Positions 1 through 25,975 of a DNA stretch of 32,821 bases are shown here, piece after piece; positions within the stretch are counted from its first letter, which is position 1; every line of letters starts with the position of its first letter. The translations under genes were made by a program, and so were the position numbers. This DNA is from Pseudomonadota bacterium (GTDB lineage Bacteria; Pseudomonadota; Gammaproteobacteria; Steroidobacterales; Woeseiaceae), in contig JADFLJ010000008.1 in the NCBI GenBank assembly GCA_022564475.1, positions 1 through 32,821 on the forward strand, given 5' to 3'. Below the pieces are notes generated by a model. The model was not told the DNA's origin. It saw only the letters and a list, made by a program, of their open reading frames with translations, and did not search any database.

Positions 1-402
1 CGCCCACATTGGGTGGTTGTGCACGAGAGAGGAGCTCGAAGCTCCACACCCTTGCGGCGCCGGAACGTAGATCCGGCGGGGATCTCGAAGTGGAATGCAG
101 GGCTTGCAGGAGATGTCGAATTGCCTGAAGTGGGACAAGACCTGGATGTTGACGGCGAGATGGCCGTTGTCGAGTCCGTGAAGGCAGCTTCGGATGTTTA
201 TGCACCGATTTCGGGCAACGTGCTGGCCGTCAACGAAGCCCTGGCGGACGTACCGGAAACGATTAACACAGATCCTTATGGCGAAGGCTGGATCGTAAGA
301 CTGCAACCCGCCGGCGAGATCGACGAGTCGAGCATGATGTCGCCCGATGACTATCAGACACTACTGGACGAACTGGACGAAGTGGACGAAGTGGACGACT
401 AA
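1..402 (+). CDS. gcvH: Glycine cleavage system H protein, 5'-truncated or with an anomalous 5' end at the window edge
   Basis: [42 protein letters not shown]...[13 protein letters not shown] is typical GcvH, including the lipoyl-lysine ESVKAASD motif. The first ~110 nt do not give a recognisable GcvH N-terminus in any frame. Confidence 0.85.
364..399 (+). repeat. Four tandem copies of a 9-bp unit (consensus STGGACGAA) at the 3' end of gcvH
   Basis: CTGGACGAA CTGGACGAA GTGGACGAA GTGGACGAC read directly at 364-399; encodes [12 protein letters not shown]. Confidence 0.9.
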
Positions 403-403
403 G

Positions 404-1777
404 ATGCCATTCATTCCGCACACCAGGAAAGACACTGAAGAAATGCTGGCCGCGATCGGCGTGCCCGATCTGGATACCTTGTTCGACGAAATTCCTCCCG
501 AGCTCATTATCGATTCGATAGAGGGTGTCCCTGAGGCCCTGTCGGAAATGCAGATCACGCGGCTCATGCACAAACGCGCAGCCATTGATGGCACGCCGTC
601 GTGCTTTATTGGCGCCGGTGCGTATGAGCATCACATCCCGACCGTGGTGTGGGATATCGCGACGCGCGGCGAGTTCTACAGCGCCTACACGCCGTACCAG
701 GCGGAGGCGAGCCAGGGCACGCTGCAAACGATCTACGAATACCAGTCGATGATCACCGAGTTGACGGGTCTCGATGTCAGCAACGCCTCTCTGTATGACG
801 GTGCATCGGGGCTCGCCGAGGCATCGCTCATGGCTGTGCGAACGAATCGTGCAGTGAAATCGCGGCGCGTCATGCTTGCACCGGGCGTCAACCCGATTTA
901 CGCGCAGGTTGCAGAAGCGATCGCCGGGAGTCAGGCCATCACGTTCGAATCGATTGCGATGGATGCAAAGACGGGCAACGTCGACTTCGACAGCCTTGAC
1001 GACAACGCAGACCCGGTTGCCGTCGTCATTCAGCAGCCCTCGTTTCTTGGCACACTGGAAGATGTTGATCGACTCACAAACTGGGCAGTGGAACGCGGAG
1101 CCATCGTTATCGCGATCGTAAACCCGATGTCTCTGGCCTTGCTCAAAGCGCCGGCGCAATGGGGCGATAGCGGTGCCGACATCGCCTGTGGGGAAGGGCA
1201 GCCGCTGGGTGTGCCACTGTCCTCCGGCGGGCCGTACTTCGGCTTCATGACCTGCAAGCAAAAGCATGTACGTCAGATGCCGGGCCGGATTGTGGGCCGT
1301 ACTACCGACCTCGACGACAAGCCCGGTTATGCGTTAACGCTGCAGGCACGCGAGCAACACATTCGACGTTCGAAGGCGACGTCCAATATCTGTACCAATC
1401 AGGGCCTCATGGTGACGGCCGCGACGATCTACATGTCCTTGCTCGGTTTTGATGGCCTCGTAAAGGTGGCGTCGCAGTCGCAACGTAATACGAAGCGTCT
1501 CGTCGATGGTCTGTGTAGCCTCGACGGCGTGCAGCGAGTGTTTGAGGGATCGTATTTCCACGAAGTCGCATTGCGACTGGATCGACCCGTGGCGCCGGTG
1601 CTTGCGGCACTGGCCGCGAACGATATCCTGGGTGGGCTGGACCTGTCGGCGTACACACCAGAGCTTGAAAATGCCTTGCTGGTTTGCGTAACCGAAACCA
1701 AGACCGACGAAGACATCGACGAGTACATCGATGCAATGCGCAAAGTACTGGCCACAGAATCTGCGAGGGGCTCATGA
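404..1777 (+). CDS. gcvPA: Glycine dehydrogenase (decarboxylating) subunit 1
   Basis: [20 protein letters not shown]...; GcvPA motifs such as [56 protein letters not shown] at 404 preferred over the 347 start, which overlaps gcvH. Confidence 0.95.
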
Positions 1778-2301
1778 GCGGCACAATCATTGCAAAAATA
1801 TCCTTCGAGAGCGGCGACTATCGAACCTACGGGGAACTTCCGAGTGTTGGTAGTCGTGCGCCGGACATCATGCTCGTGAACACCAAGTTGCAAAACGTGT
1901 CACTCGCGAACTGGATGGGCATGCGCAAGATCATGAACATTTTCGTCAGCATCGACACGTCGATCTGTGCCAGGTCGGTCATCGAATTTGATCGCATGGG
2001 CACGGGTTTTGATGATGTTGCGATGCTGATGGTGTCCTATGACTTGCCGTTCGCTCACAAGCGTTTTCAGGAGCAGCATGACCTGAAAAACGCAATCGGC
2101 TTGTCTGCCATTCGACATGCGGGTTTCGGCGAAAACTACGGCGTGCAGATCATCGAAGGACCGCTGGCCGGCATGTTTTCGAGAGCCGTTGTCGTGCTCG
2201 ATGAGAACAATACGGTCGTGCATTGCGAACACATTGAAGATATTTCCACTGAACCCGATTACACACAAGCGTTTCGCGCGCTGGGCATCGAGATCGAATA
2301 A
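1774..2301 (+). CDS. Tpx-family thiol peroxidase (peroxiredoxin), atypical active site
   Basis: Starts at [23 protein letters not shown], with ATGA overlap with the gcvPA stop. Tpx-like blocks: [79 protein letters not shown]. Confidence 0.88.
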
Positions 2302-3779
2302 TGGAATACAGGATGGAAAAACTGATATTTGAGAAATCCCGTTCGGGCCGACGCGCGTTTGCCCAGGCGCCGCGCGAGACCGCGGCGACAGACATTCCGG
2401 ATGCCCTGCGCCGTACGGACAGGCCCGGATTGCCGGAGGCATCCGAGTTACAGGTCGTGCGCCATTTCACGCGCTTGTCGCAGCTGAATTTCTCGATCGA
2501 CACGCAGTTCTACCCGCTGGGTTCGTGCACGATGAAATACAATCCGCGTGCGTGCAATGCGCTGGCGTTGTTACCGCCATTCGCGGGTCGACATCCGCTG
2601 GGACCCGTGAGTCACGGCCAGGGATTCATGAGTTGCATGTACGAATTACAGGAAATGCTCATCGGCGTAACGGGCATGACGGCCGTCTCGTTAACGCCGA
2701 TGGCCGGCGCGCAAGGCGAGTTCGCCGGCGTTGCAATGATCAAGGCCTACCATGTCGCGCGTGGCGACCTGGAACGTAATGAAATTCTGGTGCCCGACGC
2801 AGCACACGGCACGAACCCGGCAACGGCGACGATGTGTGGATGCGTTGTAAAGGAAATCCCGACCGGGCCGGACGGCGATATCAATTTTGAGGCCTTGCAG
2901 GCAGCGCTGGGTCCGAAGACCGCAGGCATCATGTTGACGAATCCATCGACACTTGGCGTCTTCGAGCGGCGCATCGTGGACGTTGCAAAACTCGTTCACG
3001 AAGCGGGTGGCTTGCTTTATTACGACGGTGCGAATCTCAATGCGATCCTCGGCAAGGTGCGGCCGGGCGATATGGGCTTCGACGTGATCCACATGAACCT
3101 GCACAAAACTTTCTCGACGCCGCACGGTGGCGGTGGTCCGGGTTCGGGGGCCGTTGGTGTGAACGACAGGCTCAAAGCCTTCATGCCGATTCCGGTTGTG
3201 GGTGCTGAGGAGCGCGACGGAGAGACCGTGTACCGCTGGCTGGCGGAGGATGATCTACCCCAAAGCATCGGACGTTTGTCAGGATTCATGGGCAACTCGG
3301 GCGTGCTGCTGCGCGCTTATGTGTATATGCGCATGATCGGTCGCGACGGCATGCGGCGAATTGCCGAGTACGCGACACTGAACGCCAACTACCTGCAAAC
3401 GAAACTGGCTGCCGCGGGTTTCGAGCTGGCGTTCCCGGGGCGGCGTGCGAGCCATGAATTCATTATTTCACTGCGGAAAGAAGCCAAGACAGTGAACATG
3501 ACGGCGATGGACGTCGCCAAGGCTCTACTCGATTGCAACTACCATGCACCGACGACCTACTTCCCGTTGCTGGTGCCGGAGTGCCTGCTTATCGAGCCCA
3601 CCGAGACCGAAAGCAAGGAAACGCTGGATGGCTTCGTCGATGCGATGATCAAGATCGCCAACGACGCACGAGACAAGGGCGTCAGCTACAAAGAAGCACC
3701 GTACAAGATGCCGGTTCGCCGCCTCGATGACGTGAAAGCCGCGCGGCAGCTCGACATCCGGTTTCAGCGACCGGACTAG
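2301..3779 (+). CDS. gcvPB: Glycine dehydrogenase (decarboxylating) subunit 2 (alternative ATG at 2313)
   Basis: [30 protein letters not shown]-lysine region [25 protein letters not shown] overlap with the preceding gene. Confidence 0.95.
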
Positions 3780-3873: not shown

Positions 3874-6672
3874 ATGGCAATCGGCAGACCACTCATAGCA
3901 CTCATCTCACTCGGCTTTGTGTCAGCGCTCAATGCGGCAGAGGACGCGGACTGGACCGCTACGCTGGACCGCATTTCGTCCGGCGTCGTTTCGATCAGAG
4001 TCGACAGCACGCGGGCGTTCGATACCGAGTGGAATTCGTCCTCGCAGGCGACCGGCTTTGTCGTCGACGCCGAACGTGGCCTGATTTTGACCAACCGGCA
4101 TGTGGTGACTCCCGGACCCGTAGTGGCCGAAGCCGTGTTTCGCAACAATGAAGAAGTACGTCTTACGCCCGTGTACCGGGATCCCGTGCACGACTTCGGG
4201 TTTTTTCGTTACGACCCGGCAGATCTCCAATACATTGAGCCGATAGCGCTGGCCCTGACACCGGGCGCGGCTGGTATCGGCCGGGAAATCAGGGTAATTG
4301 GCAATGATGCCGGCGAACAACTATCGATTCTGGCAGGGACCATTGCACGCCTCGATCGCAAGGCGCCGGACTACGGTCGAGGTAAATACAACGACTTCAA
4401 CACCTTTTATTTGCAGGCCGCATCGGGCACATCCGGTGGCTCCTCCGGGTCTCCTGTGGTGAATATAGAGGGCGAAGTGGTCGCACTGAATGCGGGTGCA
4501 AATGGCTCAGCAGCAAGCAGTTATTTCCTGCCGCTTGATCGGATCGAGCGCGCGCTCAAATTGTTGCAGGCTGACGAATTCATTACTCGTGGCAGCTTGC
4601 AAACGATCTTCGAGAGCAAGCCTTTCGACGAATTGCGGCGGCTTGGGCTGACTGAAGAATCAGAACGCGCTGTGCGGTCACGGTTTCCGGAGCAAACGGG
4701 CATGTTGACGGTTGAGCAGGTCATTCCGGATTCGCCCGCGGCAGGCAAGTTGCAGCCCGGCGACATATTGATTCGCATGAACGGTGAGCTGGTAACGGAA
4801 TTCATCCCGCTGGCGGTATTGCTTGATGACACGGTGGGCGGTGAGGTCGAGATTGAGCTTGAGCGTGGCGGTCGGTCGATCACGGAGACCGTGGTCGTTA
4901 GTGACCTGCACTCAATTACACCGTCGGAGTTCATTGAAGTGGGTGACGCGATCGTAAACAACCTTTCTTACCAGCAAGCGCGGCACTACAACCTGGCCAT
5001 CGAAGGCGTTTACGTCGCGAGTCCGGGTTATTTGTTGTCCAAATCAGCCGTGCCGCGCGGTGCGGTTATAACCAAATTTGGCAAAGACGAGATTCGGAAT
5101 ATTGATGACTTTGAAGCGGCGCTCGACAAACTGGCGGATGGCTCAAGATCGGTCTTGCGCTACGTAACGCTCGATAACCCAAGCAACTCGGTCGTTCGTC
5201 CTTTCGAAATGGATCGTGTCTGGTTTCCGGTGCGGCGTTGCACGCGTGATGACAAATCCGGTGTCTGGCCATGCAGGGACCTGGGTGCCGGACCTGCGCC
5301 GCAGCCCGAGGTCCCGGGCAGTACGGATTTTGCGAAGCAATCAGACAGGCGCGTAAGAGCCGTTGCACCGTCACTCGTGGTCGTAACATTTGATCTTCCG
5401 TACACGGTGTCTGGCGTAGCCGATCGTCATTACTACGGCACCGGCGTCATTGTCGACACGGAGCGTGGTTATGTTGTGGTTGATCGAAACACCGTGCCGG
5501 TCGGCATGGGCGATGTGACCGTTACGTTTGCCGGCTCACTGGAGGTCAAAGCGAAAATCGTGCAGCTGCATCCGCTGCATAACCTCGCCATCGTGTCCTA
5601 TGACCCGGCAGCAATCGGCGACACGCCGGTCAGGCAGGCGGTATTCAATACGGAAGCCGTCAAGTCGGGTGATGACGTACTCGTGGTTGGCATCAAGTCC
5701 GATCATCGACTGGTGTACCAGGAAAGCACGGTCGCTTCCGTCGATCCACTCACATTGCCCTTGTCACGGACACTGCGATTTCGCGACACCAATATTGATG
5801 GAATTTCACTCGTCAACGGTCCGTCGGGTTTTGACGGTGTACTCGTCGACGATCGTGGGCGAATTCTTGCAACCTGGTCGAGTTTTGTCGTTCAGACGGG
5901 CGGTGAATCCGCGCAGTTTAACCGCGGCATCAGCAGCGAACTCGTGCGTGAATTTGTGCGAACGGTGCAATCCGGGAAACCGTTTTACTCGCTCGAGGCT
6001 GAGTTTGTTTACGCACCGTTGTTTGCTGCCAGAAACATGGGTGTTAGTGAAGACTGGTTGAATCGTCTGGAGAAAAACAATCCCGTGCGTCGACGCGCAC
6101 TCAGCGTGACCCGATTGGTAGCCGGAACGAACGCGGCAGAGCTTCTTCGCAACGGCGATATTGTCATGGCTGTGGATGGCCAGGTCGTCACGTCATTTCG
6201 CGCGCTTGAACATGCGGTGCAGAAACCTGTAGTGGATCTTACGATCTGGCGCAATGGTGAAGAACTTCAATTGACGTTGCAAACCGCATCGCTGAGCGGA
6301 CTTGGTATTGATCGGGCCGTGTCATGGGCCGGCGCCTTGTTGCAGGACCCGCATCGACAGATGGCGGCACAGCGCGGCATCGAACCCTATGGTGTTTACG
6401 TGGCGTTCTTCAGTTACGGCTCGCCGGCAACACGTTACGGGCTGTGGGCAGGGCGGCGCGTGATCGAAGTTGACGAGACGCCAACCCCCAATCTGCAAGC
6501 GTTCATCGACGCGGTGAAAGGCAAGCAAGATCAGGAGTCTGTGCGTATCAAGACCGTTACCTGGACCGGTGCGATCGAGGTCATAACGCTTAAGCTCGAC
6601 AACCAATACTGGCCTGCGTACGAGATTCGTCGCACCGCTGACGGCTGGGTTCGTTCTTCGATCGGTTCCTGA
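3874..6672 (+). CDS. Signal-peptide-bearing double trypsin-like/multi-PDZ serine protease, Nma111/Deg7-like architecture
   Basis: N-terminal signal-like MAIGRPLIALISLGFVSALNAAEDAD. First protease domain: ATGFVVDAERGLILTNRHVV (His), VYRDPVHDFGFF (Asp), SGTSGGSSGSPVVNIEG (Ser). PDZ-like segments (TVEQVIPDSPAAGKLQPGDILIRMNGELV; ALSVTRLVAGTNAAELLRNGDIVMAVDGQVV). Second trypsin-like fold: YYGTGVIVDTERGYVVVDRNTVP...LHPLHNLAIVSYDP. Confidence 0.85.
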   Translation: MAIGRPLIALISLGFVSALNAAEDADWTATLDRISSGVVSIRVDSTRAFDTEWNSSSQATGFVVDAERGLILTNRHVVTPGPVVAEAVFRNNEEVRLTPVYRDPVHDFGFFRYDPADLQYIEPIALALTPGAAGIGREIRVIGNDAGEQLSILAGTIARLDRKAPDYGRGKYNDFNTFYLQAASGTSGGSSGSPVVNIEGEVVALNAGANGSAASSYFLPLDRIERALKLLQADEFITRGSLQTIFESKPFDELRRLGLTEESERAVRSRFPEQTGMLTVEQVIPDSPAAGKLQPGDILIRMNGELVTEFIPLAVLLDDTVGGEVEIELERGGRSITETVVVSDLHSITPSEFIEVGDAIVNNLSYQQARHYNLAIEGVYVASPGYLLSKSAVPRGAVITKFGKDEIRNIDDFEAALDKLADGSRSVLRYVTLDNPSNSVVRPFEMDRVWFPVRRCTRDDKSGVWPCRDLGAGPAPQPEVPGSTDFAKQSDRRVRAVAPSLVVVTFDLPYTVSGVADRHYYGTGVIVDTERGYVVVDRNTVPVGMGDVTVTFAGSLEVKAKIVQLHPLHNLAIVSYDPAAIGDTPVRQAVFNTEAVKSGDDVLVVGIKSDHRLVYQESTVASVDPLTLPLSRTLRFRDTNIDGISLVNGPSGFDGVLVDDRGRILATWSSFVVQTGGESAQFNRGISSELVREFVRTVQSGKPFYSLEAEFVYAPLFAARNMGVSEDWLNRLEKNNPVRRRALSVTRLVAGTNAAELLRNGDIVMAVDGQVVTSFRALEHAVQKPVVDLTIWRNGEELQLTLQTASLSGLGIDRAVSWAGALLQDPHRQMAAQRGIEPYGVYVAFFSYGSPATRYGLWAGRRVIEVDETPTPNLQAFIDAVKGKQDQESVRIKTVTWTGAIEVITLKLDNQYWPAYEIRRTADGWVRSSIGS

Positions 6673-6676
6673 ACGA

Positions 6677-7618
6677 ATGACGCCACGACGCACAGGTTTG
6701 TTGCTGGGTCTGATCGCGCTGGCGTTCGCGTTAAATACGTTCGCACAGACGCTTTACAAGTATCGCGGCGAAAATGGCGAGTGGATCTACTCGGATCGCC
6801 CACCCGACGACGGTGAGGTGCGCGAAACTCGCGATCTTCATACGGGGGCTGTCAGAGGCAGGCTGAGCGTTTCGCACAGCTTTGTTGATCGTAGTATTCG
6901 GCTTGTGGCGAACAACGAATTTTACGCACCCGTCGAAATGACGCTGGGTTTCGACCGCCTAAAGGGCATGAGTTACCCCCATCCGGATCAGGAACTGCGT
7001 TGGGTGCTGCCGCCGCGAAGTGAAACTGTCTTGTTGGACCTGCACGTCATTGACAGCGTTGCGGCACCCGACACGCAGTATACAACCCGGTACACACTGG
7101 GCAGCCCGGCGGCATCTCATCAGCCGACGTCCTTATACCGCGTGCCCTTCGCCATCGCGAATGAGTACGCGGTGACCCAGGCGTATCCGAATGTGAGCAC
7201 GCACGACACACCGGACGCTTACCATGCGGTCGATATTGCGATGCCCGTCGGGACCAATATTTTTGCGGCGCGTGGCGGCATTGTCTTCGATGTAGCTGAC
7301 GCCAATTTTCGTAGCGGGCTTGATCGGGAACGCGACGGACCCGGGGCGAACATCATCCGTGTACTGCATGACGATGGCACCTACGCAATCTATGCGCACC
7401 TGAACTGGAATACGATTCGTGTGCGTCCCGGTGACCGCGTGCAACGAGGTGAATACATCGCGGATTCCGGCAATACGGGGTTTTCCAGCGGCCCACACCT
7501 GCATTTCGTTGTGATTCGGAATTCGGGCATGAAACCTGAGTCGGTTCCGCTGCGCTTCGAGGGCGCGAATTCAAGTGCCGTGGTGCCCGCAACAGGCAGT
7601 GAGCTAACGGCGTACTGA
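6677..7618 (+). CDS. M23 family metallopeptidase with N-terminal DUF4124-like domain
   Basis: YHAVDIAMPVGTNIFAARGG (HxxxD), YAIYAHLNW (H), GNTGFSSGPHLHFVV (HxH): the M23/LytM zinc and catalytic motifs. N-terminal LYKYRGENGEWIYSDRPPDDGEV is DUF4124-like, behind a signal peptide. Confidence 0.9.
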   Translation: MTPRRTGLLLGLIALAFALNTFAQTLYKYRGENGEWIYSDRPPDDGEVRETRDLHTGAVRGRLSVSHSFVDRSIRLVANNEFYAPVEMTLGFDRLKGMSYPHPDQELRWVLPPRSETVLLDLHVIDSVAAPDTQYTTRYTLGSPAASHQPTSLYRVPFAIANEYAVTQAYPNVSTHDTPDAYHAVDIAMPVGTNIFAARGGIVFDVADANFRSGLDRERDGPGANIIRVLHDDGTYAIYAHLNWNTIRVRPGDRVQRGEYIADSGNTGFSSGPHLHFVVIRNSGMKPESVPLRFEGANSSAVVPATGSELTAY

Positions 7619-8006: not shown

Positions 8007-10025
8007 CTAAAGCAGGGCTTCCCAGCTGGTCACGGGTAGTTCGCAATGAGTTCCGACGCAGCGGTAGGCCACGGTTTTTCCGGCCACCGGCTCGCGGTCA
8101 GCGAGCGCGCCGGGCAGGTTCCCGGTGTCGTTGCCAATCGCGAATATCAGCTGTGAGTGTCGACAGGATTTCGCGAGTGACGTTCGCCACTGACTGATCT
8201 CTGCATCCTCGCCGCGAATTACGATTATCTCGGGATGGGAGTTGTACTCTTGCAGGGCGTTGAGCAATGACATATGCGCCAGCGGATGTTCGGTCATTGC
8301 CTGCCACGCGGCCCGCAGGACGCGTTCCGCCGCATCGAGATAGCGTGTTTCTCCAAGCAGGAAGCCCAGCCGCTGCAATGCCAGTGCTGCGATGCCGTTT
8401 CCGGACGGGACCGCGTCGTCAGCCAGGGGCTTCGGTCGATGCATCAGACTTTCATGATCGTCTGCTGTGAACCAGAAACCACCGTCTTCAGCGTCCTCGA
8501 AAAATTCCAGCAAAGTGTCTGCAAGCCTGGTTGCGAACTCGAGGTGCTGGTTGTTCCAGCGTGCCTGCAATAATTCCAGTATCGCATCCAGAAGAAACGC
8601 GTAGTCGTCGAGATACGCCGGAAAGCGGGCTTGCCCGTCTTTGTATACGGCCAAAAGCCGTGCATCCAGGAACAGATTTTCGTGAATGAAATCGACGGCG
8701 CCGGCTGCTGCGTCGATCAGGTCATAACGATCCAGAGCGCGTCCGGCGATTGCAAAGCCGCGGATCGCGAGCGCGTTCCAGGATGTTAGTTGTTTTTCGT
8801 CACGCGCAGGTGGCACGCGTTGCGCACGCTCGGCCAACAGTATTTTGCGACCGGCGTTAACGCGCTCGACGAGCTCATTAACCGGGACGTTCGTAGCCTT
8901 CGCGATCTCATCGACGGTTTGCCGCACCGTCAGATGCCACTTGCCCTCGAAATTCGCGTCCTCATCAAGTCCGAATCGCCGACTCAATGCCGCGAACGTG
9001 TCCTGGTCGAGCAAATCCGACACCTGCTCCGGCGTCCATGCGTAGAAGCGGCCTTCCTCGCCTTCGGAATCCGCATCGCGTGTTGAGTAAAGCCCGCCAT
9101 TGGGCGCGACCATGTCCGCCAGCATCCAGTCCGCCGTCGCATTGGCGACGTCGGCGAAGAGTTGCTCGCCCGTCGCCAGGTACGCCTGTGTATACACGGC
9201 CAACAAGGCTCCGTTGTCGTACAGCATTTTCTCAAAATGCGGTATTTGCCAGAATTGATCGACCGAATAACGGAAGAAACCGCCGCCAAGATGATCGAAC
9301 AGGCCACCTTCCGCCATGCGTCTGAGTGTCAGGCTCGCCATCGACAACGCTGCATCGTCTTGTGGGTAGCGCAGCAGGCGTTCGATCGTTGTCGGATGCG
9401 GAAACTTCGGCGCGCCGCTGAAACCGCCATATTCGGCATCGAAATTTCGCGCAATCTGCGTCCTGACATCGGCCAGCGGTCCGCTGTCCAGTTTCTCGTG
9501 GGCAGCAGCCGGCTCCGGGAGGAGGCGGCCGAACACTTCCATAAGTTGCTCGCCCTGACTGCGGACATCGTCAGATTTGTCGACGTAATAGGTCGCGACG
9601 TGCTGCAACAGATCCTTGAACGCGGGCATGCCGTGGCTGGGCGTCGGCGGAAAGTAAGTGCCGCCAAAGAACGGGCGCTGCGTGTCAGGGCTCAGGAACA
9701 TCGTCAGTGGCCAACCACCCGAGCGCTGCGTTAGTAATTGATAGGCGCGCTGGTAAATCTTGTCGACGTCCGGTCGTTCCTCCCGATCGACCTTAATATT
9801 CACGAACAACTTGTTCATTATCCCGGCGGCCACGGGATCTTCAAAGGACTCGTGCGCCATGACGTGGCACCAGTGACAGGCCGAATAGCCCACGGACAAC
9901 AACACGGGTTTGCCCGTCTCGCGTGCCAGTGCAAATGCCTCATCAGACCACGGATACCAGTCCACGGGATTATCGGCATGTTGCAGTAAATAGGGGCTGG
10001 TCTCGGTGGCGAGGCGATTGGGCAT
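8007..10025 (-). CDS. Thioredoxin domain-containing protein, YyaL/DUF255 family
   Basis: [88 protein letters not shown]. Confidence 0.95.
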
Positions 10026-10041
10026 TTCGGCTGGTGTCCTG

Positions 10042-10071
10042 CTGGCACGAAAATCGGGCGGCCACTATAAC
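10042..10071 (+). promoter_or_regulatory. Possible sigma70-type promoter for lgt (CTGGCA-N18-TATAAC)
   Basis: CTGGCA at 10042-10047 and TATAAC at 10066-10071 in the divergent yyaL/lgt intergenic region; found by eye only. Confidence 0.3.
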
Positions 10072-10135
10072 GCATCTACAGTCGGCGAAAAGGCGGTGTT
10101 AGACTTAGCCGAAATTCGCTACCGGGCACCTGTTT

Positions 10136-10921
10136 ATGCTGACATACCCAGAGATCGACGAGGTCATATTCTCGATCGGTTTTCTCAAAATTCGCTGGTA
10201 CGGGCTGATGTACGTCATCGGTTTTGTGCTCGCATGGTGGCTGGCCAAGCGTCGTTGCACGCGGTCCGATTCACCGGTAAACAGCGAACAGGTCGATGAC
10301 CTCGTGTTCTACGCCATGCTCGGCGTGATCGCGGGCGGGCGTGTTGGCTATTGCCTGGTGTACGGCTGGGATGAGCTGATATCCGACCCGTTGTATTTGT
10401 TCAAGATCACCGAAGGTGGCATGTCATTCCACGGCGGGCTGGCCGGCGTGTTGATCGCGATGTGGCTTTATGGCCGAAAACTTGGCAAGACGATGTGGCA
10501 AATCACCGATTTTGTCGCGCCATTGGTGCCGCTCGGGCTCGGCTTCGGTCGCATCGGCAACTTCATCAATGGCGAACTCTGGGGCAAGCCGACTGATGTT
10601 CCCTGGGCGTTCAATATCAACGGCGTCGGACTGCACCCGTCGCAGTTGTATGAAGCCATACTCGAGGGCTTCATGCTGTTCGCGATCCTGTGGATCTACT
10701 CGCGCAAACCGCGACCCTACCTGGCCGTGTCGGGCTTGTTCCTGTTTTTATACGGTGTGTTCCGATTTTTCGTCGAGTTCTATCGCGTGCCCGACGCGCA
10801 TCTCAACTACCTCGCGCTGGGCTGGGTGACAATGGGACAATTACTCAGCATGCCGATGATCATAGTCGGCGCGCTGGTCCTGTTTCTTGCCTACCGAAAA
10901 AAGCAGGAGGCGCAGGCCTGA
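10136..10921 (+). CDS. lgt: Prolipoprotein diacylglyceryl transferase
   Basis: [59 protein letters not shown]. Confidence 0.97.
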
Positions 10922-10922
10922 C

Positions 10923-11717
10923 ATGCATCAATATTTGTCGCTGATGAGGCACATCAAGGAGTCCGGCCAACGCAAGGAAGACCGCACGGGCACGGGCACA
11001 TTGAGCGTGTTCGGTCACCAGCTGCGCTTCGACCTGAGCGCAGGATTTCCACTCGTCACGACCAAGAAATTGCATTTGCGTTCGATTATCCATGAGTTGC
11101 TGTGGTTCTTGTCGGGCGACAGCAACATCCGCTACCTCAGGGAGAATGGCGTCAGGATCTGGGACGAGTGGGCGGACGCGGACGGCGAGCTGGGTCCTGT
11201 TTATGGTGTGCAATGGCGCAGTTGGGGTACGCCCGATGGCGCGGCAATCGATCAGATCAGTACGGTGATGCAGCAGCTCAAAGAGTCGCCAGACTCGCGG
11301 CGAATTATTGTCTCTGCCTGGAATGTCGCTGACCTGGACAACATGGCGCTGCCCCCATGCCACGCTTTATTTCAGTTTTACGTCGCGGACGGCAAGCTGT
11401 CGTGCCAGTTATACCAGCGCAGCTGCGACGTCTTTCTGGGCGTGCCGTTCAACATAGCGTCCTACGCCTTGCTAACGCATATGATAGCGCAGCAAGCGGA
11501 TCTTGCCGTCGGTGATTTCATCTGGACCGGGGGCGATTGTCACTTGTATCTGAATCATCTGGCACAGGCGGACGAGCAGCTTGCGCGTCAGCCGCTGCCG
11601 TTACCTCGTCTTGCGATCAAGCGGCGGCCAAAAAGTATTTTCGACTACCAATACGAGGATTTCGAGATTCTTAACTACGAGTCGCACCCGCACATTGCGG
11701 CGAAAGTCGCGGTCTAG
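10923..11717 (+). CDS. thyA: Thymidylate synthase
   Basis: [63 protein letters not shown]. Start ATG at 10923 gives 264 aa. Confidence 0.97.
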
Positions 11718-11723
11718 TTCCAA

Positions 11724-12236
11724 ATGCGTATCAGCCTTATCGCCGCAGCCTCGGCGAATAATGTCATCGGAAACCGGGGTGAGCTGCCGTGGCACCTGCC
11801 GCGCGACCTAAAGCGTTTCAAAGAAATCACGACGGGCAAACCGATCGTCATGGGACGTTTAACCTGGCAATCGATCGGCAAGCCGCTGCCGAATCGTCAG
11901 AATATCGTCCTCAGCCGCAATCCGGACTTCGAAGCGCCGGGTTGCGATATCGTCGCGTCGCCCGATGATGCTGTGGACATGGCAGGCCGGGTCGACGAGC
12001 TAATGATTATTGGCGGTGGACAGCTTTACCGTGAATTCCTGCCACGTGCGCAACGTATCTATATGACTCGAGTCGCTGTCGACATTGATGGCGATGCTTA
12101 CTTTCCCGATTTGATTGATGGCGAGTGGCAGGAAACGTCACGCGAGGCTTTCGCGATGGATTCGAAACACGCTTACCCGATGGAGATTTTTCAACTGGAT
12201 CGAGTCCTTACGGCTTCAATGCCGACAGGCGGCTAA
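11724..12236 (+). CDS. folA: Dihydrofolate reductase
   Basis: MRISLIAAASANNVIGNRGELPWHLPRDLKRFKEITTGKPIVMGRLTWQSIGKPLPNRQNIVLSRNP; IIGGGQLYREFLP. Confidence 0.96.
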   Translation: MRISLIAAASANNVIGNRGELPWHLPRDLKRFKEITTGKPIVMGRLTWQSIGKPLPNRQNIVLSRNPDFEAPGCDIVASPDDAVDMAGRVDELMIIGGGQLYREFLPRAQRIYMTRVAVDIDGDAYFPDLIDGEWQETSREAFAMDSKHAYPMEIFQLDRVLTASMPTGG

Positions 12237-13569
12237 GGGCCGCGTCGGCGGCTCCTGGCAGATCGACTTCGGCCAGCGAGTTCGCGTCCCTGGTGAATTC
12301 TTCCAGCAGCGCGTTCTGGATTTCCCCACGTTGTTGTGCGAGGAGATAGGGGATTTCCGCATGAAACATCACCATTGAATAACGCGGGATGAAGTGCTGC
12401 GGTAACCTGCGCTCAAGCTCGAAAGACAGTGTCTTGCGCAGCGCGAATTTTGGGTCGCGCACTGTGTCGCGCATTTCGATGTAATTGTCCAGTGCCATGT
12501 CTGCAATCGCATTTGCATTCGCAAGTTGTTCGGCCTCGAAGCGCGCGAAAACATTGGGCCAGTCGCCGCCAAGGTCGTCCACGATCTCCGACAGTCGCAC
12601 GCAGTCTTCGAACGCCAGGTTCATGCCCTGACCGTGGAAAGGCACGATGGCATGCGCTGCGTCGCCGATGAGCAAGACGTTGCCGTGGTCGTGCCAGTGG
12701 CGGCAGCGTACGGTGCTGAGTATGCCCAGTGGGTGGTGCAGGACTTCGTCACAAAGCCTGGGAATCAATGCGGCTACGTCAGAAAAATGCTCTTCGAAAA
12801 ACCGCATGACCGCAGCTTCGTCGACCAATTGCCCGAAGCTGTTATTTCCCGCCGTGGACAGAAACAGTGTCAGCGTGAAGTCACCGCCCGGATTCGGCAG
12901 GGCGATAAGCATGAAGCCGCCGCGCGGCCAAATGTGTAGTGCGTCCGACGCAAGCTGATATTCACCGCTCGGTCCGGCAGGAATAGAGAGTTCCTTGTAA
13001 GCGTGTGCGAGCAGGGATTCGATGCCACCAAAGGTTCCGGTACCGTCGAATGAGCGACGGATGATCGAACCGGCGCCGTCTGCCGCAAGCAAGGGCTCCG
13101 CTGCAATTTGATACATGCTGCCGTCGAGCTCGTTCCTGATGTGTACAGTGCGGTCCGGCGCGTCGTAAGCGATCGCATTCTGCTGAAAATGCAGGTGCAG
13201 GTTGGGTGTGTCGTCGGCCACGCCCAGCAATACCTGATTCAGCCCCAGCCTCGTGACTGAGTAAATCTGTTCGTGTTCTTGTTGCCCATAGCGAAGGAAA
13301 GACGTCGTACCGTCGGCCTGATGCAGCATGCGGCCCCGCATAGGCACCAACATGGGTTGGATGAGTGCGTCGATGCCCACTTGCTGTAATGCATTCAGCC
13401 CGCGCGCCGCGAGCGCGAGATTGATCGAGCGACCTGCCTCCGCGTCGCGGATGCGCGGGTCGGTGAAGCGTTCGTAAACGTTAAGCTCGAAACCGTGTCT
13501 CGCGAGCATAATCGCGGTCAACGTGCCGCATTGACCGGCACCAATTATATTGACGGAATCGGATTTCAT
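12208..13569 (-). CDS. kmo: Kynurenine 3-monooxygenase (FAD-dependent)
   Basis: VNIIGAGQCGTLTAIMLARHGFELNVYERFTDPR; AGRSINLALAARGLNALQQVG; LLIGDAAHAIVPFHGQGMNLAFEDC. Confidence 0.92.
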   Translation of the reverse strand: MKSDSVNIIGAGQCGTLTAIMLARHGFELNVYERFTDPRIRDAEAGRSINLALAARGLNALQQVGIDALIQPMLVPMRGRMLHQADGTTSFLRYGQQEHEQIYSVTRLGLNQVLLGVADDTPNLHLHFQQNAIAYDAPDRTVHIRNELDGSMYQIAAEPLLAADGAGSIIRRSFDGTGTFGGIESLLAHAYKELSIPAGPSGEYQLASDALHIWPRGGFMLIALPNPGGDFTLTLFLSTAGNNSFGQLVDEAAVMRFFEEHFSDVAALIPRLCDEVLHHPLGILSTVRCRHWHDHGNVLLIGDAAHAIVPFHGQGMNLAFEDCVRLSEIVDDLGGDWPNVFARFEAEQLANANAIADMALDNYIEMRDTVRDPKFALRKTLSFELERRLPQHFIPRYSMVMFHAEIPYLLAQQRGEIQNALLEEFTRDANSLAEVDLPGAADAALSRLSALKP

Positions 13570-14834
13570 TTTAGAGCGAGTTCGAGACGCTCCACAAATT
13601 CGAATACGTCGGAAAAGCTGTTGTACATCGGTGCGGGCGCGACGCGTATGACGTCGGGTTCACGCCAGTCGCCCGTGACATTGAGCTTGCGCAGTCGGTC
13701 GAACAGCGTCTTGCCGTCGATGTTCGCATCTTGCACGACGAGTGACAGTTGAGCACCGCGCGCATCTGCAGGCGTGAGAATGCCAATGTGTTCAGGGAAG
13801 CGTCGATTGATCAACCAACGCAGGTAATTCGTCAGGCTGCGGGATTTTTCGATCAGGCGCGGCAGACCAGCCTCGAGAAACAGTTCCAATGACGCAATGA
13901 CGGGCGCCAGCGAAAGAATCGGTGGGTTACTTATCTGCCAGAGTTCGGCGCCTGCGGCCGGTGTAAACGTCGGCAGCATCTTGAAGCGTGTCTTGTCGTC
14001 ATGTCCCCACCAGCCGTGCAGCTGGTTCAGGTTTTCCGGCGAACAATGCGACTCGTGGATAAAGGCACCGCCGATCGCTCCCGGCCCCGCATTCAGGTAT
14101 TTGTAGGTACACCATGCCGCGAAGTCCGGCGCCCAGTCATTGAGGTGCAGTTCTACGTTGCCAATGGCATGTGCCAGGTCCAGCCCAACAACACAGCCGG
14201 CATCGCGCCCCAGGCGGCAAATTTCGGCCATTTCGAGAACCTGCCCCGTGTAGTACTGGACGCCCGGCAGCAACAGCAGGGCGATGCTGTCGCCCTCTCG
14301 CTCGAGAATGTCGGCCAGGTCTGACAGGGCTAGCCAGCCGTCCTCGTTGGACGATTTCCATTCAACGATTCCTTCCTCCGGGTCGAAACCGTGCATGCGA
14401 ATCTGCGATTGCGCAGCGTAGCGATCGGACGGAAACGCCTTTTCCTCGATCAGAATCTTGTGGCGTGCATTCGTCGGACGATAAAAACTCGCCATCAGAA
14501 AGTGCAGATTGACGGTCAGCGTGTTCATCGCGATTACTTCGGATGGTTTCGACCCCGTTAAATCTGCAAACCCCCGGGTTGCGTGCCGGTGGTATTCGAT
14601 CCACGGCCGCTCGGAATGAAAATGACCGTCGACGGCGTAATTGGCCCAGTTTGCGAGTTCGTCGAGAACGTATTTTTTAGCCAGCTTGGGCTGCAGTCCC
14701 AGGGAATTACCGCACAAGTACACAGGCGAATTGCCGTCACGGCTTGGCGGGAAATTAAACTGGTCGCGAAATGCCCGCAGTGGATCCTGTTCATCCAGCT
14801 TGCGTGCGAATTCCTTGTTGTCTTCGAAATTCAT
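13566..14834 (-). CDS. kynU: Kynureninase
   Basis: NSPVYLCGNSLGLQPK; WIEYHRHATRGFADLTGSKPSEVIAMNTLTVNLHFLMASFYRPT; DWAPDFAAWCTYKYLNAGPGAIGGAFIHE. Start MNFEDNKEFARK at 14834 preferred. Confidence 0.95.
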   Translation of the reverse strand: MNFEDNKEFARKLDEQDPLRAFRDQFNFPPSRDGNSPVYLCGNSLGLQPKLAKKYVLDELANWANYAVDGHFHSERPWIEYHRHATRGFADLTGSKPSEVIAMNTLTVNLHFLMASFYRPTNARHKILIEEKAFPSDRYAAQSQIRMHGFDPEEGIVEWKSSNEDGWLALSDLADILEREGDSIALLLLPGVQYYTGQVLEMAEICRLGRDAGCVVGLDLAHAIGNVELHLNDWAPDFAAWCTYKYLNAGPGAIGGAFIHESHCSPENLNQLHGWWGHDDKTRFKMLPTFTPAAGAELWQISNPPILSLAPVIASLELFLEAGLPRLIEKSRSLTNYLRWLINRRFPEHIGILTPADARGAQLSLVVQDANIDGKTLFDRLRKLNVTGDWREPDVIRVAPAPMYNSFSDVFEFVERLELALK

Positions 14835-15352
14835 GGTTGGGCGGTTTCCTGCTTCACTGTTCCACAATGTTCGCAGCTGCGATTTTCGACGGAGCTGTAG
14901 AATCGTTCAAAAACCGCAGGCAGTTGACCCACGATATCGTCGACGTACAGGTATTCCTCGTACAGCTTGCTATCGCAATTGTCGCAATACCAGATGAAGC
15001 CGTCGAGTTCCTGCGGCAAGCGCTTGCGTTCGACGACCAGGCCAATCGTGTCCGCAAAGCGTTGCGGTGAGTGCGGCACGCGCGGTGGCAGGAGCAGGAC
15101 GTCGCCTTCGCCAATCGTGATATCGACTCGCTTGTCATCCTGGATGGTCCGCAGAAGCATATCGCCCTCGAGCTGGTAGAAAAACTCGGGTCCTTCATCG
15201 ACGTGATAGTCGTCGCGTGAGTTTGGACCGCCGACAATCATGACGATGAAGTCATCGTCCTCGAAGACCTGTTGATTACAGACCGGTGGTTTGAGCGCAT
15301 CGCGGTGAGCGTCGATCCACTGCTGCAAATTGAACGCGCTTAGCGATCGCAT
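14831..15352 (-). CDS. nbaC: 3-hydroxyanthranilate 3,4-dioxygenase
   Basis: GGPNSRDDYHVDEGPEFFYQLEGDMLLR; LLPPRVPHSPQRFADTIGLVVERKR; C-terminal CDNCD...CEHC metal site. Start MRSLSAF at 15352. Confidence 0.93.
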   Translation of the reverse strand: MRSLSAFNLQQWIDAHRDALKPPVCNQQVFEDDDFIVMIVGGPNSRDDYHVDEGPEFFYQLEGDMLLRTIQDDKRVDITIGEGDVLLLPPRVPHSPQRFADTIGLVVERKRLPQELDGFIWYCDNCDSKLYEEYLYVDDIVGQLPAVFERFYSSVENRSCEHCGTVKQETAQP

Positions 15353-16611: not shown

Positions 16612-17403
16612 TCAGGTGCTCGCGGAACTGTTTTTCAACGCCAGATGATTGGCCAGTGCCACCCAGTCCGGGATCGCGATGTTTTCAGGGCGCAATCCCG
16701 GGTCAATATTGAGGGCTTGCAGTTCCTCCTCGGAGGCGTATGTCTTTACGGCATTGCGCAGCGTCTTGCGCCGCTGGCTGAAAGCCGCTGCGACCAGGCC
16801 TGACAGAAGCTGGCCATCCACGATATCGATGATCCCGGATTTGGGCCGCAGCCGCACCACGGCCGAGGTCACGGCTGGCGGCGGATCAAACGCCAGTCGG
16901 TCGACGTCGAACAGCGCTTCGATATCGAGGTAGCAGCCGAGCATGATTGTAAGACGACCGAATGCCTTGCTTCCGGGATCTGCCGCCATGCGATCGACCA
17001 CCTCTTTTTGCAACATGAAATGCATGTCGGTAATCACGTCGCGCTGAGCGAGGAGGTGAAACAACAACGGTGTCGAAATGTTGTACGGGAGATTGCCAAC
17101 GACGCGCAGCGAGGTGCCCAGTGACGAGAAGTCGAAAGACAGCGCGTCTGCTTCATGAATCGTGACGCGCTCGTTATCCTGGAACAGAGTGCGCAAACGC
17201 GCTGCGAGGTCGCGATCGAGCTCCACTGCATGCAAACTACCGCAGCGTCGCGCGAGTGGCACTGTGATTGCTCCGGAGCCCGCGCCGATTTCGACAATGA
17301 CCTCATCTTCCTGCGGCGAAATCGCATTGACGATGGCGTCAACGACACCGGGATCTGTCAGGAAATGCTGTCCAAATCGTTTGCGCGGGCGGTGCTTGTT
17401 CAC
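16612..17403 (-). CDS. rsmA: 16S rRNA (adenine1518/1519-N6)-dimethyltransferase (GTG start)
   Basis: RPRKRFGQHFLTDPGVVDAIV; VIVEIGAGSGAITVPLA; VVGNLPYNISTPLLFHLL. Minus-strand start codon is GTG (plus 17401-17403 = cac). Confidence 0.96.
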   Translation of the reverse strand: MNKHRPRKRFGQHFLTDPGVVDAIVNAISPQEDEVIVEIGAGSGAITVPLARRCGSLHAVELDRDLAARLRTLFQDNERVTIHEADALSFDFSSLGTSLRVVGNLPYNISTPLLFHLLAQRDVITDMHFMLQKEVVDRMAADPGSKAFGRLTIMLGCYLDIEALFDVDRLAFDPPPAVTSAVVRLRPKSGIIDIVDGQLLSGLVAAAFSQRRKTLRNAVKTYASEEELQALNIDPGLRPENIAIPDWVALANHLALKNSSAST

Positions 17404-18401
17404 GAGTGACCGGCTTGCCGATGGGCGATGTCGCGCGCCAGCTCCATTGCCTTGAGCAGACTCCCCGTATCGGCTTCGCCCGAGCCTGCGAGATCAAAGG
17501 CAGTGCCGTGGTCGACCGACGTCCGAATGAACGGCAGGCCCAGCGTGACATTGACGGCATGACCAAATCCGGCGAATTTCAGAACCGGTAAGCCCTGATC
17601 GTGGTACATGGCCAGGACGGCATCTTTGTGGCCTGCCGCGGGTGTGAACGCCGTATCAGCCGGTATGGGGCCGCGAATGTTTGCGCCGCTGTCCTGAAAC
17701 TCCCGGACCACGGGCGCTATGATTTCGGCGTCTTCGTGGCCAAGGTGCCCACCTTCGCCTGCATGTGGATTCAGGCCGCAGACCACGATCTCCGGCCGGT
17801 CTATCCCGAAAGATGATTTGAGGCCATCGACCAGCACAGACAAGACCTCACGCAAGCGGGTCGCGTTCAGATAGTCCGGCACGTCGCGCAGCGGCATGTG
17901 CGTACTTGCCAGCGCAACTCGCAACTCACCCGCAACAAGCAACATGACGGGGAGACGGATGTTCGCCAGTTCGGCCAGAAACTCCGTATGCCCGGTAAAC
18001 GCGATGCCGGCATCGTTAACAATGTCCTTGGCAAGCGGTGCCGTGACCAGCGCCGCGAAACGACCGTCGAGACAGCCTTCGACGGCGAGTCTCAGGCCAT
18101 CCAGCAGTGCAGCCGCATTTGCCGGATCGGGTTTTCCGCATTCGACCTTTGCGGGGAAGGGTATATCAATGACGGCGAGCGTACGGGCAGTGGCTTGCCA
18201 GTCCTCGAGCTGGTCAAGCGCGAGTCCTGAAATCTGAATGTCGATTCCGATTTGCTGTGCACGCTCACGCATGAGTCTCACGTCAGAGACGACGATGAAA
18301 TCAGGGCGATCTTGTGCGGCCGCAATTGCCAGACAAAGTTCAGGGCCGATGCCTGCCGGGTCACCGGCAGTGACAATGAGGGCTTTGCGGGTGCGAGTCA
18401 C
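17400..18401 (-). CDS. pdxA: 4-hydroxythreonine-4-phosphate dehydrogenase (likely GTG start overlapping the surA stop)
   Basis: TRTRKALIVTAGDPAGIGPEL; TGHTEFLAEL; NPHAGEGGHLGHEDAEIIAPV; GHKDAVLAMYHDQGLPVLKFAGFGHAVNVTLGLPFIRTSVDHGTAFDLAG. Confidence 0.94.
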   Translation of the reverse strand: MTRTRKALIVTAGDPAGIGPELCLAIAAAQDRPDFIVVSDVRLMRERAQQIGIDIQISGLALDQLEDWQATARTLAVIDIPFPAKVECGKPDPANAAALLDGLRLAVEGCLDGRFAALVTAPLAKDIVNDAGIAFTGHTEFLAELANIRLPVMLLVAGELRVALASTHMPLRDVPDYLNATRLREVLSVLVDGLKSSFGIDRPEIVVCGLNPHAGEGGHLGHEDAEIIAPVVREFQDSGANIRGPIPADTAFTPAAGHKDAVLAMYHDQGLPVLKFAGFGHAVNVTLGLPFIRTSVDHGTAFDLAGSGEADTGSLLKAMELARDIAHRQAGHS

Positions 18402-19786
18402 ATCCGGATGTCGATGTAGGCCTCGTCGCGCAGTCGGCGCATCCACAACTGGGTTTCGTCACCCAATTTGCCATTACGGATACGTGCCGCGCAATTTTGC
18501 TCTTTGAGGTCTTCGGTTGTGTCGTAAACGCGACGGCCGAGGACTTCAACGATGTGCCAGCCGAACGGGCTGCGGAAGGGCTCGCTCATTTCACCGGTTT
18601 CGAGTAGATCGACGGCGGCCTGAAATTCTGTAACGAATGTTCCGGGACCTGCCCAGCCCAGATCACCGCCATCATTTGCGGAGCCAGGGTCATCAGAGAG
18701 TAGTTTCGCAAGGTCTGCAAATTCCTCGCCCGCCACGATGCGTTCGTGCGCATCAACGACCCGCTGCCTGGCCGTTTGGTCATCGATGATTTCGTTCGGC
18801 ATGACCAGGATATGCCGGACATTGATCTGATCTTCTTCGCTGTGCTCAACTGCGCTGCGCATAGCGTTGACTTTTACAATGTGGATGCTTGCCGCGGTAC
18901 GGAATGGTTCAGACACGTCACCGGCCGAGAGTGGTGCAAGTATCTCGATGAATACGGTTGGCACTTGTTCGCCCTGCATCCACCCCAAAGCGCCGCCCTG
19001 CAGTGCAGAAGGGCCATCGGAAAAGCGTACGGCCAGTTCGCGAAAATCTGCACCGTCGGTCGCCCGTTCGTAAATATCCTGGGCAATGCCAACGATGTCA
19101 TCGATCTGTGTTGCCGATGCAGCTTCCGGGAAAGACAGGAGGATGTGCGACAGGTCGTAGTCTGAGTTAACGACAACATTGTCTTCTACGTCAGCAACGC
19201 AATTTTCTATTTCACGTGGCGAAACATTGATTTTTTGTTCAACTTCGATGCGCCGTAATTGTTCCAGTGTAATGTCGTCGCGCATTTGACGTCGAAAATT
19301 CTGATAGTCGATGCCTTCCCTGGACATTACGACCGGCAGGTCTTCAAATGCGATGCCGCGTCTTGCAGCGACGTTGGCAATGACCTGGTTGAGCATTTGG
19401 TCGGAAACCTGCAGGCCAATCATCTCGGCACGCTGCAGTTGAATTTCGTTCAGTATGACGCGCTCGAGAACCTGTTCTTCAAGAATATCATCGGGCGGCA
19501 AAGGCCAGCCTTCCTGCTCCGACTGCGTCACAATCAATTCGAGTGTTTCCAGGTATTCGCTTTTGAGTACGATGCCTTCATTAACGATCGCAGCGACGCT
19601 GTCGAGCAGCTCACCGACGGGTTCCGCCTCTTCCGCGGGCGGGCCTGCGAAAAAACTGACGGCCTCCGGCGGCGCATCCGCGACGGCCTCAGCGGGCGGA
19701 TCGTCGGTCTCGGGGAGGTCTTGGGCCGCGACAAGCGGCGCAGCCAATAGCGCGACAATAGCGCATAAGCTATTAATTTTAAACAC
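18398..19786 (-). CDS. surA: Periplasmic peptidyl-prolyl isomerase/chaperone SurA (GTG start)
   Basis: Signal peptide; LLDSVAAIVNEGIVLKSE; two parvulin (PPIC) domains (SHILLSF..., VRHILVMPNEI...GDLGWAGPGTFVTEF...SEPFRSPFGWHIVEVLGRR). Confidence 0.95.
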   Translation of the reverse strand: MFKINSLCAIVALLAAPLVAAQDLPETDDPPAEAVADAPPEAVSFFAGPPAEEAEPVGELLDSVAAIVNEGIVLKSEYLETLELIVTQSEQEGWPLPPDDILEEQVLERVILNEIQLQRAEMIGLQVSDQMLNQVIANVAARRGIAFEDLPVVMSREGIDYQNFRRQMRDDITLEQLRRIEVEQKINVSPREIENCVADVEDNVVVNSDYDLSHILLSFPEAASATQIDDIVGIAQDIYERATDGADFRELAVRFSDGPSALQGGALGWMQGEQVPTVFIEILAPLSAGDVSEPFRTAASIHIVKVNAMRSAVEHSEEDQINVRHILVMPNEIIDDQTARQRVVDAHERIVAGEEFADLAKLLSDDPGSANDGGDLGWAGPGTFVTEFQAAVDLLETGEMSEPFRSPFGWHIVEVLGRRVYDTTEDLKEQNCAARIRNGKLGDETQLWMRRLRDEAYIDIRM

Positions 19787-19792
19787 TTTTTA

Positions 19793-23141: not shown

Positions 23142-23788
23142 TCGCAATGATTCTTGCGGCCGGCCGTGGCGAGCGGCTGTGGCCAATTACAGAATCCATG
23201 CCGAAGGCCTTGGTGGAGGTACGCGGGCGCAGCTTGCTCGAACGCCACCTGGATGCCGTCAAGGCAGCCAGCATCGACAATGTTGTAATCAACCTCGGCT
23301 GGTTGGGCGAGCAAATCGCCGACCGCATTGGATCCGGCGCGATGTATGGACTCTCTGTCGTTTACAGTCCTGAGGGTGACAATATTCTGGAAACGGGCGG
23401 CGGCATACAGCGAGCATTGCCGTTGCTCGGCAAAAAACCGTTTCTCGTGATCAATGCGGACGTGTTTAGCGACATGCCGCTGCCCGCCGGGTTGGCAGAC
23501 GATGCGCAGGGACATCTTGTTCTGGTGCCAACGCCAGCGCACAAGGAACAGGGTGATTTCGATCTTGCAGACGGGCGCGTAACGAATGGCGAAAACCCGG
23601 AGTTTACGTTCAGTGGCGTCGCAATTTATCGCCCGAGCTTTTTCGCAGACCGCGAGCCGGGACGTTTTTCGCTGGCACCGATGTTACGCAGCGCTGCCGA
23701 CGCGTCAACGCTGACGGGCGGCGTGTATGAGGGCGTGTGGGAGGACATAGGCACGCCGCAGCGGCTTGAAAAACTCAATCGTCGTTAA
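23138..23788 (+). CDS. murU: N-acetylmuramate alpha-1-phosphate uridylyltransferase
   Basis: MIAMILAAGRGERLWPITESMPKALVEVRGRSLLERHL; NADVFSDM; FSGVAIYRP; WEDIGTPQRLEKLN. ATGA overlap with amgK. Confidence 0.92.
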   Translation: MIAMILAAGRGERLWPITESMPKALVEVRGRSLLERHLDAVKAASIDNVVINLGWLGEQIADRIGSGAMYGLSVVYSPEGDNILETGGGIQRALPLLGKKPFLVINADVFSDMPLPAGLADDAQGHLVLVPTPAHKEQGDFDLADGRVTNGENPEFTFSGVAIYRPSFFADREPGRFSLAPMLRSAADASTLTGGVYEGVWEDIGTPQRLEKLNRR

Positions 23789-24440: not shown

Positions 24441-24700
24441 AGCGCCATCAATACATCTTCGTGTGCCGTGAGTGCATGGTAGATATCGTCCAGCTGCTGC
24501 TGACTTTGGGCATTAATGGTTGCCGTGATCGAGACGAATCGACCATTGCGGCTCAGGCTTGACTGGATTGCACTGTCGGCCAGCGGGCCCGCGTGTTCTT
24601 CGACCAGTGCACGCACGAGCGCATGGAATTCCGGTGTTTCGTGTCCCATGATCTTGATGGGAAACTCACAGGGAAATTCAAGCAGGCTTTCGTCACTCAT
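24437..24700 (-). CDS. ybeD: UPF0250/DUF493 protein YbeD
   Basis: MSDESLLEFPCEFPIKIMGHETPEFHALVRALV...SLSRNGRFVSITATINAQSQQQLDDIYHALTAHEDVLMAL. ATGA overlap with lipB. Confidence 0.93.
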   Translation of the reverse strand: MSDESLLEFPCEFPIKIMGHETPEFHALVRALVEEHAGPLADSAIQSSLSRNGRFVSITATINAQSQQQLDDIYHALTAHEDVLMAL

Positions 24701-24719
24701 GACACAACTCAAATGCTGT

Positions 24720-25868: not shown

Positions 25869-25975
25869 TTGGGTCCAGCCAGGAGATAAAGAGGGCGCAC
25901 ATTGTAAACGGAATCTGCAGCGAGAGATCGGATTAGGAAAAATTCACCCGCATCCTGGATTGATGCTGTCTTTCG

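Follow-up and report, generated by a model that had tools for sequence, protein, structure and literature searches.

A probably exported bacterial HtrA protein of the Nma111/Deg7 type, in which a live protease domain is joined to a dead one

A gene of a marine-type bacterium of the Woeseiaceae encodes a known eukaryotic kind of protein, the double HtrA protein Nma111/Deg7, here in a bacterial, probably periplasmic variant. The gene occupies positions 3874–6672 on the + strand of the 32,821-nt stretch of DNA that was analysed (subsequently designated the window), and its kinship with Nma111/Deg7 is well supported. Quite likely, it represents an exported bacterial orthologue of these proteins and acts as an ATP-independent quality-control protease of the periplasm, in which a live first half is joined to a dead second half serving as assembly module. 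The architecture, the intact first and the dead second catalytic triad, the kinship, the distribution and the signal-peptide-like start are features observed in the sequences.

Results

Domain architecture and predicted structure

The 932-aa ORF starts with ATG and is intact, without a frameshift. Pfam detected two Trypsin_2 stretches (8e-30), two stretches of PDZ_1 (PF12812; 93.3 bits, 9e-27) and two further stretches of the PDZ/PDZ_2/PDZ_6 type in the protein. The AlphaFold2 model (monomer prediction with 20 family members as input; mean pLDDT 89.6, pTM 0.86) displays the order protease-PDZ-PDZ-linker-protease-PDZ-PDZ, that is, two DegP-like halves. Pfam and the model agree on one chain with the layout PD-PDZ-PDZ-PD(inactive)-PDZ-PDZ (PD, protease domain) in the size range of about 900–1100 aa. 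The following features were assigned:

3874..3939, + strand: signal-peptide-like N-terminus, residues 1–22, MAIGRPLIALISLGFVSALNAA (hydrophobicity)
3952..4569, + strand: protease domain 1 (PD1), active type, residues 27–232 (Trypsin_2 59–205; AF2)
4585..4902, + strand: PDZ domain a, residues 238–343 (PDZ_6 279–331, PDZ_2 271–340; AF2 secondary structure)
4906..5208, + strand: PDZ domain b, PDZ_1 type, residues 345–445 (PF12812 347–422, 65.2 bits as single stretch)
5209..5298, + strand: linker, residues 446–475, with C456 and C467 (invariant Cys; pattern W...C...W.C)
5341..5979, + strand: protease domain 2 (PD2), catalytically dead by its residues, 490–702 (N539, N570, F653; AF2)
5983..6282, + strand: PDZ domain c, residues 704–803 (AF2 secondary structure; position homologous to PDZ a)
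6286..6660, + strand: PDZ domain d, PDZ_1 type, residues 805–929 (second PF12812 stretch, 37.6 bits, window 6310–6522)

These data bear out the preliminary description of this DNA, in which a protein of 932 aa with two trypsin-like segments, each accompanied by about two PDZ-like segments, had been recognized; the peptide blocks quoted there are all present in the translation, and the AlphaFold model suggested there as a check returned the two expected protease-PDZ-PDZ halves. In a class-wide profile search every complete homologue was matched over its full length, and length is kept at about 930–990 aa among 112 homologous loci. Since both this length and the first triad are conserved across these loci, the architecture of the ORF is not a product of chance.

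The protein resembles Nma111/Deg7 from end to end

For comparison we employed Arabidopsis Deg7 (At3g03380, Q8RY22) and yeast Nma111/Ynm3 (P53920). Both are provisional sequences rather than database records, and their individual letters are unproven; the provisional Deg7 has the published length of 1097 aa (PMC3473262), and the provisional yeast protein gives two PDZ_1 stretches in Pfam (191.8 bits). Measured against these sequences, the window protein is 37.5% identical to yeast Nma111 over 911 aa (572 bits); its identity to Deg7 is 50.6% for the N half, 35.5% for the C half, ~43% end to end and 62% in PD1. Deg7 is closer to the window protein (43%) than to yeast Nma111 (34%), and it is also closer than several bacterial members, which are only 34–41% identical to the window protein. 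E. coli DegP, DegQ and DegS, in contrast, reach 22–24% identity (DegP ~22%), over one half. The strong resemblance to Nma111/Deg7 noted before thus runs end to end, and it is not the match to ordinary DegP/DegQ over a single protease domain that had been named as the refuting case.

Two further lines of evidence for this kinship are independent of the provisional sequences. PF12812 is found twice in the ORF protein but, as the suggested Pfam check revealed, in none of E. coli DegP, DegQ and DegS. Moreover, PDZ_1 scores above ~43 bits came exclusively from frames of ~930–990 aa in whole-genome scans, whereas DegP-sized frames scored ~20–41 bits.

The Do-family model TIGR02037, which represents DegP/DegQ, scored 151.9 bits against a cut-off of 416.2, and in place of the single protease domain followed by two PDZ domains that is typical for this family, Pfam finds two protease domains. 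No NCBIfam model exceeded its cut-off for the ORF protein. Foldseek against the PDB gave DegP/DegQ as best matches, one half at a time, and sequence searches of the PDB returned single-half HtrA proteins but no structure of Nma111 or Deg7. A fusion of DegP/DegQ was ruled out as a candidate, the protein being a full-length relative of Nma111/Deg7. A conventional DegP-like gene is also present in the host genome, and the double HtrA is therefore an addition rather than a replacement.

The first catalytic site is intact, the second has decayed

Across the alignment of 112 bacterial sequences, H76, D107 and S191 of the first triad never vary. The serine motif of the window protein is G-S-S-G-S (G189-S-S191-G-S193); G189 is invariant in all 112 sequences and S193 is present in 108/112, giving G-x-S-x-S as the motif of the bacterial alignment. 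The window motif fits the GXSXS given for Nma111 of A. niger (PMC7804941).

The second domain presents a different picture. Its His position (539) is occupied by Asn in 108, Asp in three and Thr in one of the 112 sequences, never by His, and its Asp position (570) carries Asn in 111/112. At the Ser position, an alignment of the halves reveals no Ser but mostly a hydrophobic residue. The window protein has N539/N570/F653 at this site, and the corresponding residues are N/N/F in Deg7 and R/N/N in yeast Nma111, as far as the provisional sequences go. By these residues, the ORF protein is composed of one active-type protease and one pseudoprotease. Consequently, the earlier term "double protease" is a misnomer, as one of the two trypsin-like domains is inactive, having lost all three catalytic residues.

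PD1 is the most conserved part of the protein: columns that are at least 98% invariant account for 37% of PD1, but for 5–13% of the other domains. This difference suggests that catalysis is under selection and is apparently what selection guards most.

Export signal and a conserved Cys pair in the linker

The maximal Kyte-Doolittle value of an N-terminal 11-mer is 2.47 in the window protein versus 0.74 in yeast Nma111. A hydrophobic N-terminal stretch is present in 107 of 111 homologues; the other four comprise one truncated contig and three proteins with long Pro/Ala-rich N-termini. Judged by hydrophobicity, the N-terminus is signal-peptide-like here as well as in the 107 homologues, in keeping with the preliminary description, and the ORF protein is probably periplasmic. 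Three homologues (L051, L059, L101) carry a lipobox-like motif and may be lipid-anchored rather than soluble. The signal-peptide-like N-termini depart from the intracellular location without Sec signal that characterizes eukaryotic members. Location was not taken as defining an Nma111/Deg7 double HtrA, because it differs among the eukaryotic members too.

C456 and C467 in the linker (pattern W...C...W.C) are invariant in 112/112 bacterial sequences. In the provisional eukaryotic sequences they are replaced by Y/Y (yeast) and Y/A (Deg7), and the Trp residues and an RND..G.W core are retained. From the conserved pair we infer a probable C456-C467 disulfide, which would suit a periplasmic protein just as its loss would suit an intracellular one.

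Occurrence

The gene is near-universal in the host genus and order, being present in 93/99 genomes. It was detected in 25/369 sampled genomes of the class, at full length except for genome G992, in which two separate contigs each hold a partial match, as would result if contig ends had split the gene. Drawing 299 genomes from across the phylum added nothing outside the class, none was found in 60 and 337 genomes (about 400) of two other classes of the phylum, and control genomes from other phyla gave no match over the cut-off. A scan of named genomes returned at least 530 loci. Eighty loci were kept; among the matches listed, almost all are labelled Gammaproteobacteria, Woeseiaceae or Proteobacteria, and the nearest named records are metagenome-assembled genomes of Woeseiaceae.

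One homologue (L143; 58% identity over residues 24–930) is located on a contig labelled Actinobacteria (JAJPIR010000243.1). Since it resembles gammaproteobacterial members, its source is probably a misnamed or contaminated metagenome bin. Another bin (N075bin63) contains two distinct gene-bearing contigs (L118, L119), reflecting either a paralogue or a mixed bin. An origin from viruses or phages was rejected, as viral contigs and phage records contained no relative. Carriage by plasmids was likewise dismissed: the matches were only ordinary DegP/DegQ-like and none covered 80% of the query, the match on an M. bullatum plasmid being a single DegQ-like frame of ~530 codons with GNSGG.

Gene neighbourhood

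The gene is flanked on the same strand by:

2301..3779, + strand: gcvPB, glycine dehydrogenase subunit 2, upstream neighbour and conserved positional marker (GcvP2_C)
6677..7618, + strand: secreted-type DUF4124 + M23 metallopeptidase gene, 4 bp downstream (Pfam M23 7.5e-20; DUF4124, N-terminal)

In 95 of 115 loci gcvPB is near the gene, in 80 of them within 600 bp, and the M23/DUF4124 gene is adjacent in 58/115. The latter is probably co-transcribed with the protease gene and possibly its operon partner in the host family. In many genomes of the order the arrangement gcvPA-gcvPB-(protease)-DUF255 thioredoxin-like-lgt-thyA-folA is conserved (window 347–3779 and 8007–12236); the proximity of gcvPB and the DUF255-lgt-thyA-folA block indicate long residence of the protease gene in the order. 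Outside the order gcvPB is generally missing, so that neither gcvPB nor the M23 gene is essential to the function of the protease. Next to folA are a kynureninase-like and an FAD monooxygenase gene (13566–14867 and 12208–13569, − strand, 4 bp overlap), which suggests a pair for tryptophan/kynurenine degradation. Further on, 16612–22000 and 23775–30869 (both − strand) hold ordinary blocks of envelope and cofactor genes: lptD-surA-pdxA-ksgA; lipB and genes for a PBP5-like carboxypeptidase, a lytic transglycosylase and a PBP2-like transpeptidase.

Origin of the duplication

Phylogenies were calculated with IQ-TREE (LG+C20), three from the halves and one from their concatenation, combining the halves of 17–24 bacteria and 1–2 eukaryotes with 8–15 DegP/DegQ proteins; the eukaryotic rows are the provisional sequences, and several of the rows are long or unusual in composition. 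Bacterial and eukaryotic N halves share one clade and their C halves another (98–100 support each), and both are set apart from the 8–15 DegP/DegQ proteins with 100/99–100 support. Grouping with conventional bacterial HtrA, previously named as an outcome speaking against the Nma111/Deg7 assignment, is therefore not seen; the halves join Nma111/Deg7. As the halves sort by their position in the protein and not by organism, a single duplication predates the split of bacterial and eukaryotic members. For both halves the eukaryotes are nested among the bacteria; of 200 bootstrap trees per half, 0% united the bacteria in one group, compared with 6% for the concatenation. AU tests with bacteria constrained to one group, i.e. 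with sister groups, gave p values of 0.12 and 0.29 for the halves and 0.37 for the concatenation and did not reject this topology. Neither changes of taxa nor concatenation decided between nesting and sister groups.

These trees favour the direction from bacteria to eukaryotes, and the doubled enzyme probably arose in bacteria before its use by eukaryotes. The suggestion that the bacterial proteins are related to the origin of the eukaryotic family is favoured, as eukaryotes fall inside the bacterial spread in free trees, but in view of the AU tests it is short of proof. Eukaryotic HtrA proteins are usually assumed to derive from the alphaproteobacterial mitochondrial ancestor. We tentatively put forward, as a scenario with somewhat less than an even chance, that the envelope of gammaproteobacteria-like bacteria was where duplication and PD2 inactivation occurred, and that Nma111/Deg7 descend from this exported enzyme, losing signal peptide and Cys pair, rather than from that ancestor. 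A single-half ancestor was not found among bacteria in the class-wide profile search.

Two other histories have to be weighed. The family could have been transferred from a eukaryote to bacteria with the signal peptide added afterwards, as its patchy occurrence in the class (25/369) and its absence from the samples of two other classes would allow and the AU tests did not reject; however, the gene is near-universal in the host order, with a conserved place beside gcvPB, and in the free trees the eukaryotes lie inside the bacteria. Moreover, the bacterial spread (down to 34% identity with the window protein) exceeds the distance to Deg7 (43%), and the rarity of bacteria as a single group in the bootstraps (0% and 6%) likewise makes this direction improbable. 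Alternatively, ordinary DegP might have been duplicated independently in these bacteria, converging on the eukaryotic architecture. Each half indeed has the fold and order of DegP and tandem duplication is easy, but this idea is already contradicted and hardly credible: bacterial and eukaryotic halves group by position with 98–100 support, PD1 is 62% identical to that of Deg7, the linker motif W..RND/RDD..G.W is shared, and N/N/F stands at the dead second site just as in Deg7.

Discussion

Taken together, the data point to a protease that would serve envelope quality control as an ATP-independent serine protease. What is proposed for its proteolysis, its activation by PDZ domains, the formation of trimers through the dead domain, the disulfide and the substrates is drawn from the relatives. 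By analogy, cutting would be performed by the first half (protease-PDZ-PDZ), whose PDZ domains, as in other HtrA proteases, may catch unfolded or exposed C-terminal ends and thereby activate the H76-D107-S191 site. The second half would be the duplicate, its protease domain having presumably died before bacterial and eukaryotic members separated; it may have become an assembly module, mediating trimerisation as reported for Deg7, and probably also offers an extra platform for substrates. In the oxidising periplasm, the C456-C467 pair could stabilise the region where the two halves join.

It is conceivable, albeit unlikely, that the protein is mainly a periplasmic chaperone or scaffold for which cutting is secondary. 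One half of the protein has no catalytic role, HtrA proteins are able to function chiefly as chaperones, and chaperone activity has been reported for yeast Ynm3/Nma111 and several HtrA proteins (PMC4877387). Yet conservation is by far the highest around and within the active triad (37% nearly invariant columns in PD1 versus 5–13% elsewhere), which suggests that catalysis is selected for. Still less probable is a role as dedicated regulator that trims or activates the neighbouring M23 peptidoglycan hydrolase: the two genes are 4 bp apart on the same strand and adjacent in 58/115 loci, and both products are apparently exported, but this pairing is absent from almost half of the loci, among them every one sampled outside the order, and gcvPB, which has no plausible link to the protease, is just as constant a neighbour. 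A quality-control protease with a live first and a dead second half is our preferred reading.

The doubling of Deg7 has been explained, for plants, as duplication and fusion of a whole gene, after which the second half decayed. That an entire Gram-negative order has an identical end product, down to the dead residues, moves this event before the bacterial/eukaryotic split. Architecture, dead domain and the role of the latter in trimerisation are already known for Deg7, whereas the bacterial periplasmic variant is mentioned only in passing in the open literature. Klim et al. 2018 (PMC5982838) note that bacteria possess some proteins with greater similarity to yeast OMI/HTRA than to human HTRA; the relevant part of that paper is silent on how they are built, on a dead second domain, and on their hosts and cellular location. 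A survey of microbial PDZ proteins from 2019 (PMC6411480) lists PDZ_1 from a few fungi and archaea only and, for eukaryotic HtrA, refers to an origin from mitochondria; the bacterial double-HtrA family fits neither statement easily. We found no description of an exported bacterial Nma111/Deg7 in the open literature, and automatic annotations of such bacterial proteins may well exist. The bacterial homologues offer a means to study how a dead protease half aids a live one, and they would be of greater interest if the eukaryotic proteins indeed originate from this family.

Among known systems, the Do family (DegP/DegQ/MucD) shares a periplasmic location by signal peptide, and each half of the window protein resembles one DegP subunit in fold and order; DegP/DegQ differ by their single protease domain, the serine motif GNSGG and an identity of only ~22%, and E. 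coli DegP/Q/S also by the lack of a PDZ_1 match. Yeast Nma111/Ynm3 agrees in architecture, the two PDZ_1 domains, GXSXS and a dead second site, but has no signal peptide, has R/N/N at the second site and Tyr in place of the linker Cys; the fungal Deg protease is described as nuclear (PMC4130198). Deg7, which according to different reports resides in chloroplast stroma, cytosol, nucleus or mitochondrion (PMC4130198), has the layout PD-PDZ-PDZ-inactive PD-PDZ-PDZ (PMC3473262), and its homotrimers form through the degenerate protease domain, as reported in PMC3473262 and PMC4754418. It is like the window protein in domain order and in its active first and dead second protease domain with N/N/F residues, and unlike it in that a long insertion separates its halves, bringing its length to 1097 aa, in the lack of a bacterial signal peptide and in the replacement of the linker Cys by Tyr/Ala.
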